Below, in pieces: positions 39,123 through 56,130 of a stretch of DNA of 64,000 bases (position 1 is the first letter of the stretch; the number at the start of each line of letters is the position of its first letter). The notes under the pieces are model-generated. The model made no database searches and had not been told where the DNA came from. It saw nothing but the letters and a program-made list of their open reading frames with translations. This DNA is from Sinonovacula constricta (Eukaryota > Mollusca > Bivalvia > Cardiida > Solecurtidae). Location: NCBI GenBank assembly GCA_007844125.1, contig CM017571.1:1680077-1744076 (forward strand), in the 5' to 3' direction. A program made the position numbers and the translations under genes.

Positions 39123-39145
39123 GGTTACTGGATAGTGACAAATTT
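39123..39145 (+). repeat. Left terminal inverted repeat
   Basis: Starts GGTTACTGGATAGTGACA and continues AATTT. It matches the reverse complement of 56108-56130 at 22 of 23 positions. Similarity stops sharply on both sides. Confidence 0.85.
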
Positions 39146-39379
39146 GATAGTTACAATCACTCTGAAAAGTTTAGTATAGTTTATATATGAGCTGTAGATT
39201 ATAAAAAACAAAAAAAATCAGTGAGTTACCATTGAAATAATCATTTTATTGCCTCATGTGTATGGTTGATGTAAACAAGCAATGTTGCCATTTTCAGACA
39301 TAAACTTTATTTTATCATATCAACTATATTTTTGTGAAAAAAGGTAAACAAGCCTATATGGCAGTTTCTTAGATTCAGC

Positions 39380-39523
39380 ACACACACACATATATATATA
39401 TATATATATATATATATATATATATATATATATATATATATATATATATATATATATATATATATATATATATCTATATATATATATATATATATATATA
39501 TATATATATATATATATATATAT
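39380..39523 (+). repeat. (CA)n then (TA)n microsatellite in the left arm
   Basis: A short CA run followed by about 130 bp of TA with a single C interruption near 39474. It probably explains why the left arm is longer than the right arm. Confidence 0.95.
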
Positions 39524-39776
39524 TGCAACAAAATAAACACATAAACTGGCATATGTTTTGGATTTAGCTGCAAAAGTCTTAATGCAGTACATAAAAAATA
39601 ACAATTATCATTTTATGATACAGTTCTTCCCAAAACCAGATTCATGCATATATACAAACAAGAAAAGTGGGATACTATAGGATACCCCCGTGTCCTATTG
39701 GACAGAGGGGAGGGGTGGGGTGGTGTTAAGGACCAGACAGACTGACAGACGGATCTGAAGATTACTATAATTCAAC

Positions 39777-39846
39777 ATCAATCTCATTAAAATCACATCC
39801 TTACTTTCGCTTTATTACTTTCCGCTGGTTAGGATCTGAGAACATC
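39777..39846 (+). repeat. Left subterminal inverted repeat, 70 bp
   Basis: Matches the reverse complement of 55750-55819 at 64 of 70 positions without gaps. The 26-base core from ATTACTTTCCGCTGG to AGGATCTGA is identical. It lies about 115 bp upstream of the helicase start, so it may serve both as a transposase site and as promoter DNA. Confidence 0.92.
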
Positions 39847-39899
39847 CCGATAAAGGTCGCCTCGAAGTGAGCTTTAAGTTATAAATATTAATGAGCCGA

Positions 39900-39907
39900 T
39901 GACGTCA
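39900..39907 (+). promoter_or_regulatory. CRE-like palindrome and CCAAT box upstream of the helicase
   Basis: TGACGTCA, a perfect ATF/CREB consensus, lies about 54 bp upstream of the helicase ATG. GACCAATCAG, a CCAAT-box match, follows at about 39913-39922. Placement is right for a promoter; function is inferred. Confidence 0.5.
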
Positions 39908-39960
39908 AACTTGACCAATCAGAAACCTCGTTACGAAACAAGTTCGTCTAATCTATCAAC

Positions 39961-54392: not shown

Positions 54393-55236
54393 GATCTATT
54401 TTAACGATACTTACCAATTGATGTTTAAGTATTTTATTTTTTAATTTCATAAGCCTTTGTATACATACATATACTGTTCTTATTCCTATATCTATACACT
54501 TCTCTCCCCTTCGTATTTAGCATAGTACTACTAATACAATATCTCATATTTGCACATAAATCTATCTATTTTATAGCAATCTGATAAATGTTAAACACTT
54601 TAGTATATATACAGTCTGACCTGCATAAGCGACCCTCGGCATTCAAACATATTATTAAGTTACACAACACAGTCTTGATGTTATTCCGTGGTGTTATCAT
54701 ATTAGTTACTCAGTTGTCCTGAGTCTAGATTCTCTGTCTATATGACATAACCGATGGTCATGACATGCAGGTCAGGCTGTACATCACATTGTAAACATCA
54801 TTCTATTTAAAACTTGTATTGATATTGTAACCGAAATTTAATGACCGTCACTGGAAATAATTGTGTGTATATTTATATGTTATAACATGCTTGTATTGCC
54901 TATGGACAAATGTCTTTTTTGCAATAAAATTATTCTATTCTATGTGACGTTTGACCCTATCTACCTATATAATAAACACAAGGAATGCAACGGATTTGTA
55001 CCCCACCCACTAACCCGTTACAAGAATTTCCTAGCTACAGCCATGACACGGAGTTTTCGCTGGTTACGTTTTAACAAAATAAACCCCTATTATTAGCAAT
55101 CATAGCTCTTCAATAAAAGTCATTCTGGAATTGGGTATCAAACGTTTGTTTCATTATTTATTTTGTCGCCCACTCCATTGAGTGGTAAAACAGTGATGTA
55201 CCAAAAATAATTATGTGGTGAAAACAAATTACATAC
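54393..55236. other. LINE 3' UTR and remaining transposase intron
   Basis: The LINE 3' UTR runs to the ATTCT repeats at about 54950; the last 290 bp up to the exon-1 donor are intron. ORFs here are chance. Confidence 0.6.
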
Positions 55237-55580
55237 CTGTTGTAACCGGTTTCTCATTTCTTCTAATTCCAACTTCATGTCAATCATCCACAAATTGCTG
55301 CTGTCAAATAACTGACTCCACTTTTCTATAACATTTCTGACACACCGCGGTATCGTTGTCAGACAGCGACAAACACTTCACTACCTTTTTCATATTCTGA
55401 AGGCGTTCTTCATTGATTCTAAGTTTTTGTTTGTACTGTTTTTGTGTGTGTTTGCTCCCACTACCTGTTATCAGAACCTGAAGAAAAGACATTCCGCAAA
55501 AACCAGCACCGATCAACTAACGAATGTAATTTCTTTGACGTTTGTTTTACTGGATCGCAAATGTCAATGGGGGCTGCCAT
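55237..55580 (-). pseudogene. Presumed transposase, first exon
   Basis: ATG at 55580-55578 opens MAAPIDICDPVKQTSKKL and CWFLRNVF in a good ATGGCAGCC context. The frame then shifts into SKHTQKQYKQKLRINEERL and KCLSLSDNDTAVCQKCYRK, and again into NLWMIDMKLELEEMRNRLQQ before the donor (CAG then GTATGT). The Cys spacing suggests an N-terminal zinc-binding module. It lies 170 bp inside the right subterminal repeat, mirroring the helicase start on the other side. Confidence 0.6.
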
Positions 55581-55749
55581 CTTGAAAATATGACGCACCT
55601 TTAATCGGAATACCTTGGACATTGCCGCTCAACATGAATTTCCGTAAATAGCCGTAATCTTGCGAATATTCATGAAGTTATACCCCAACATTTTGCAGCC
55701 GACGATTTCATTGGCTAATCAAATGTCAAATTGAGGTTACCCCTAATGC

Positions 55750-55819
55750 GATGTCATCAGATCCTAACCAGCGGAAAGTAATGAAGCGAACGTTAGGATG
55801 TGATTTTAACGAGATTGAT
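55750..55819 (-). repeat. Right subterminal inverted repeat, 70 bp
   Basis: Reverse complement of 39777-39846 at 64 of 70 positions. Bounded outward by TTCATC, against TTCAAC outside the left copy; that near match may be incidental because the outer repeats fit better as termini. Confidence 0.92.
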
Positions 55820-56089
55820 TTCATCATGCACATCTGCATATAGTGGCGTTGTTTGTGGGGGGTATAATTAAACTGTACTCTGGACTCATAAATAATGAAC
55901 AAATTTCTTCAATTACATGTATGACAAGAATGTTTTTACATTTTCAATAATTATCTTTGATGCAGTTACTCTGACCCGCGGTGAATGTTATGGCGCGCTC
56001 TGATTGGCTGATAATTCCATGCAGAAATTTAAGGTGCAGCACAACGCCGTGAATGCGGGAAAGTTCAAATCTCAAAAAATCTGCGCGAT

Positions 56090-56103
56090 CGTCTGCGCAG
56101 ACG
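56090..56103. promoter_or_regulatory. 14-bp palindrome beside the right TIR
   Basis: CGTCTGCGCAGACG is perfectly self-complementary and lies 4 bp inside the right TIR. It is a possible transposase or host-factor site. No equivalent was seen beside the left TIR. Confidence 0.5.
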
Positions 56104-56107
56104 CTCC

Positions 56108-56130
56108 AAATTCGTCACTATCCAGTAACC
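56108..56130 (-). repeat. Right terminal inverted repeat
   Basis: Reverse complement reads GGTTACTGGATAGTGACG then AATTT. It is followed outward by TAAA (56131-56134), identical to the tetramer outside the left repeat. Confidence 0.85.

Follow-up and report, generated by a model that had tools for sequence, protein, structure and literature searches.

A probable old DNA transposon pairing a RecQ-like helicase with a DUF6589 protein in Sinonovacula constricta

Introduction

Positions 39123-56130 of the 64-kb window analysed here (64,000 nucleotides of contig CM017571.1 of the bivalve Sinonovacula constricta) hold a RecQ-like helicase gene and a DUF6589 gene between inverted repeats, which raises the question of whether the two genes belong to one mobile element. 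A reading made from the sequence only had proposed that they do, and our analysis supported it: the interval is bounded by terminal inverted repeats (TIRs), encloses two converging genes, and is very probably one old, inactive DNA transposon of the cut-and-paste type, about 12.4 kb long, enlarged to 17 kb by the later insertion of a long interspersed nuclear element (LINE). The sequence itself shows the repeats, a flanking match that resembles a target site duplication (TSD), the order, families and damage of the genes, and, for a minimum of one further mollusc, linkage of the gene pair.

Helicase-bearing DDE transposons are already known, namely Academ (PMC3627910), KolobokH and Kolobok-1_CCri (PMC9587614). 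DUF6589 is listed by Pfam as a family of unknown function, and uncharacterised genes for its proteins are present in at least 17 mollusc species. Literature searched by family name gave no link between DUF6589 and transposition, and such a link may be in print elsewhere. If our reading is true, it would provide a function for DUF6589, explain why this family travels with small genes that carry WRN-like or RecQ-like annotations, and mean that gene sets of marine invertebrates count transposons as host helicases.

Terminal repeats and target site

To define the outer boundaries, the sequence was searched window-wide for TIR matches and the flanks were compared. The two TIRs, 24 bp each, lie at 39123-39146 (plus strand) and 56107-56130 (minus strand), with the sequence GGTTACTGGATAGTGAC(A/G)AATTTG and an identity of 23/24 between the inverted copies, which bears out the 23-bp repeat (22/23) described before and extends it by one base pair. 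With up to 3 mismatches allowed, the two ends were the only matches in the window, and 100 shuffles gave 0. TAAA abuts both TIRs externally (39119-39122 and 56131-56134), and further out the flanks AAACCAGTTAAA and TAAAGGAATGTT showed no similarity in the TAAA register. This agrees with the earlier description, apart from an ambiguity: TAAAGG is found at both ends, as GG follows the right TAAA and also opens the left TIR, so that the exact element boundary has some slack. The probability of a flank match of at least 4 bp at random boundaries within the window was 0.009.

In this single decayed copy the flanks match over 4 bp, but those of 9 and 10 bp do not. Shifting the boundary by two bases gave an 8-bp flank pair alike at 6/8 positions; this register requires two mutations together with a chance GG/CC complement and was rejected as less simple, although it keeps a small probability. 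The registers considered were meant to cover a TSD of 9-10 bp and the TTAA of Kolobok.

Kolobok transposons have TTAA as their TSD. We regard it as very unlikely that the element is a RecQ-bearing Kolobok such as KolobokH or Kolobok-1_CCri. In favour of this reading, a TTAA is present at the left end one base out of place; against it, the right flank reads TAAAGG without TTAA, and a TTAA duplication was not seen in the present element. The likeness lies in the combination of a RecQ helicase with a DDE transposase, and in Kolobok-1_CCri the RecQ gene is on the complementary strand, as would fit here; KolobokH, however, is described as found only in fungi (PMC9587614).

Two converging genes and a nested LINE

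A tblastn search with 194 fetched proteins (E <= 1e-3) placed all of its high-scoring segment pairs (833/833) within 39913-55501, and 0 in the window beyond the element. As had been claimed, the only two genes apart from the LINE are separate and converge, the helicase gene from an ATG at 39961 on the plus strand and the DUF6589 gene from an ATG at 55580 on the minus strand. Nine other open reading frames (ORFs) of at least 100 amino acids held no further Pfam domain, no nuclease domain was detected by Pfam in the joined genes, the LINE or these nine ORFs, and the window had no Rfam match at gathering score. The nearest named relatives are from bivalves and gastropods.

The helicase gene (39961-42548, plus strand, broken) was identified by homologues and Pfam as a RecQ/WRN-like superfamily 2 (SF2) helicase. 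Homologues support the pieces 39961-40263, 40925-41086 and 41627-42392, and the reading frame stays open to 42548. The joined pieces matched Helicase_C (1.4e-15) and DEAD (5e-14), and the gene contains the blocks GFGKS, DECH, SAT, ATSALGIGID and QQIGRVGRDG, which we take to be helicase motifs I, II, III, V and VI, respectively. At least 145 relatives were found. Among the 120 matches listed, the top near-full-length ones were two Mercenaria proteins (51%), followed mostly by bivalve proteins of about 450-500 amino acids and, lower, by amphioxus, hemichordate, fish, coral and bacterial RecQ proteins, and an environmental fragment reached 64% over half the length. When the Mercenaria relative was compared with solved structures, the nearest was WRN (9e-36).

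The DUF6589 gene (44477-55580, minus strand, broken) was delimited by homologues. Its joined pieces matched PF20231 at 4.5e-27, with 95.2 bits against a gathering score of 27, so the protein belongs to DUF6589. This fits the suggestion that a block with VGDN and SLHLFN resembles this family. The central exon (47212-47679) searched alone against Pfam matched no family. Exon 1 lies inside 55295-55580 and was matched by three homologues with a long N-terminus (P0014, 4e-6; P0036, 3e-9; P0179, 2e-8); the other homologue-supported pieces run from 48400 down to 44477. This exon is past the LINE, about 5 kb to the right of the DUF6589 exons recognised before (about 44.5-50 kb).

The nested LINE (50327-54942, plus strand, ends approximate) has endonuclease and reverse transcriptase ORFs and an ATTCT-type tail, and separates exon 1 of the DUF6589 gene from its next supported exon. 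As exon 1 lies beyond it, the LINE (about 50.3-54.9 kb) is intronic. No convincing target duplication of the LINE was found. Both the helicase and the DUF6589 gene carry one in-frame stop and several frame breaks, damage that the sequence-only reading had overlooked, and the present copy should not be able to make full-length proteins.

Two side observations concern the DUF6589 gene. Exon 1 carries cysteine pairs that resemble those of a ZAD zinc domain; a Pfam search for zf-AD in P0014, a relative of this exon, gave no match. Off the homologue-supported exons, the gene also contains a 108-bp unit in two tandem copies that are 93% alike (48838-49054).

Nested subterminal repeats and mirror symmetry

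A second inverted repeat, which had also been overlooked, is nested inside the TIRs. Its 70-bp copies at 39777-39846 (plus strand) and 55750-55819 (minus strand) are 91% alike (E 9e-25), and an ungapped alignment of the pair covers 99 bp at 82%. The whole window was scanned for inverted 24-mers with at least 23/24 identity and 3-40 kb apart, excluding simple sequence. The scan returned 16 registers, 14 in the subterminal repeat and 2 in the TIR, and 0 elsewhere. The subterminal repeat is 654 bp away from the outer end on the left and 311 bp on the right, and an (AT)67 run at 39390-39523 accounts for part of the greater length on the left. Each set of repeats lies just upstream of one gene: the helicase ATG comes 115 bp farther in than the left subterminal repeat, and the DUF6589 ATG 170 bp farther in than the right one. 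With the first DUF6589 exon beyond the LINE, the element is mirror-symmetric, showing TIR, subterminal repeat and gene start from either side.

The two gene starts also share a ATGGCNGC start (AACATGGCGGC and AAGATGGCAGC, at 39958-39968 and, on the minus strand, 55573-55583), which in our view resembles a YY1-type promoter motif.

Predicted fold and presumed catalytic residues of the DUF6589 protein

The predicted structure of DUF6589 suggests an RNase H core whose last catalytic helix is preceded by a large insertion that contains a C2H2 finger; a helical stretch is predicted between strands 2 and 3. On the minus strand, the presumed first catalytic D falls in VGDN (47524-47535; D163 of P0001) and the presumed second in GDRLADERVQ (46277-46306; D315 of P0001). 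KIEDFHSLIN (46184-46213) contributes an ExxHxxxN motif past the predicted fifth strand, and in the helix DEYLEML (44819-44839) the candidate for the catalytic E is E624 or E627 of P0001. These presumed catalytic residues are retained in this damaged copy. The predicted fold, the conserved acids, and the linkage of the pair in Patella and probably in Mercenaria make it likely that the DUF6589 protein is the DDE transposase of the element, in support of the earlier proposal of a DDD/E transposase.

The fold comparison ranked the P element, ISCth4 and Hermes highest, a Z difference of up to 1 counting as a tie. A Foldseek search with the predicted structure gave no match at E <= 0.001, and a sequence search of the PDB with the DUF6589 profile gave 17 weak matches, mostly zinc fingers, with a best E of 0.014. 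In the predicted fold, the RNase H core and the large insertion that precedes its last catalytic helix are shared with the P element, hAT (Hermes), ISCth4 and Transib/RAG1, but no sequence relation to these transposases was found, and DUF6589 differs from them in the helical stretch predicted after strand 2 and ahead of strand 3 and in the C2H2 finger of the insertion. To our knowledge, P element, hAT, ISCth4 and Transib/RAG1 elements have no helicase gene.

These comparisons bear on whether DUF6589 transposons form a lineage distinct from Academ, with their own helicase, 4-bp TSDs and a fold nearest to P, hAT and MULE-type transposases. The 4-bp TSD and the top fold rows favour this view, which we consider rather unlikely: the ExxHxxxN motif begins with E, not with C or D, the presence of a helicase is given as a mark of Academ, and fold rows with close Z values are tied. 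A separate DUF6589 lineage of helicase-bearing transposons, set apart by its 4-bp TSDs, nested terminal and subterminal repeats, the helical insertion that parts strands 2 and 3, and the C2H2 finger in the catalytic insertion, is rather unlikely in the same measure.

In the mechanism that we propose, the nested end repeats would be bound by the DUF6589 protein, which would pair both ends, cut them and join them to the target with a 4-bp stagger, giving a 4-bp target duplication. The active site would be an RNase H-fold DDE made of the D of VGDN, the D of GGDR and the E in the DEYLEM helix. Ends, hairpins or repair intermediates would be the substrates that the RecQ-like helicase unwinds or processes, and the whole route would be cut-and-paste.

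The gene pair in other genomes

To our single copy the possibility applies that two unrelated genes lie by chance inside the unrelated outer repeat pair of another element. The nested symmetric repeats and symmetric gene starts argue against this, and so does the occurrence of the same pair elsewhere; we hold it to be very improbable. In Patella caerulea the DUF6589 gene (SNE40_022131) and the helicase gene (SNE40_022132) stand side by side, with consecutive locus tags and contigs of equal size. In Mercenaria each of the two sits on a 70,536-bp contig, taken as a single contig from species and equal size, so the pair is probably linked there too. We compared 16 NCBI-named DUF6589 rows on contigs <1 Mb, one contig per cluster, with the listed helicase rows, and the Mercenaria row was the only one matching the contig size of a listed helicase, which is a lower bound. 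Chromosome-sized contigs common to both genes (Ostrea, Crassostrea virginica, Mya, Pinctada and Pecten) carry little weight. Viral contigs, contigs of bacterial and archaeal genomes, and phage records contained no DUF6589 relatives, and viral contigs no TIR, negatives that say little because none of those collections consists of animal genomes.

Relation to Academ

The earlier suggestion of an AcademH element was right as to gene content. A transposase and a RecQ-type helicase in one DNA transposon are features of AcademH (PMC3627910, PMC10045372), and the SF2/RecQ helicase stated for this group is present here. The TSD, however, differs, as AcademH is stated to have 9 or 10 bp and AcademX 3 or 4 bp (PMC10045372), against a 4-bp match in the present element, AcademH being compared by description only. 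The 4 bp fit AcademX, but AcademX has a nuclease in place of AcademH's helicase (PMC10045372), and our element showed no nuclease domain in the Pfam search. The element thus combines the gene content of AcademH with an AcademX-like TSD. We did not file it in AcademH because a TSD of 9-10 bp was looked for and not found on this single copy.

Most likely, the element works like AcademH and is related to it. We somewhat favour the reading, compatible with a single mobile unit, that it is an ordinary AcademH, in which DUF6589 would be the Academ transposase under another name and the short TSD either an accident of decay or a real difference at family level. In its favour, a RecQ helicase has been reported for Academ (PMC3627910), and AcademH is said to occur in animals and fungi, according to the title of Kojima 2020 as cited elsewhere; against it stand the 9- or 10-bp TSD of AcademH (PMC10045372) and the failure of the 9- and 10-bp flanks to match here. 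Literature searches combining Academ with bivalve helicase transposons, or with XPG and transposase, found no match. PMC10045372 proposes that TSD length in Academ goes with the accessory enzyme, and an element that has a helicase but a 4-bp TSD would be a test of this proposal.

Other features of the window

Outside the element, a LINE with a reverse transcriptase (1.4e-16) lies on the minus strand at 31935-34918. The minus-strand ORF at 58698-59270 looks like the remnant of another LINE; within it, 74 bp are perfectly duplicated in tandem at 58789-58939. A direct repeat of about 295 bp, 88% identical, was observed at 239-532 and 4423-4714.
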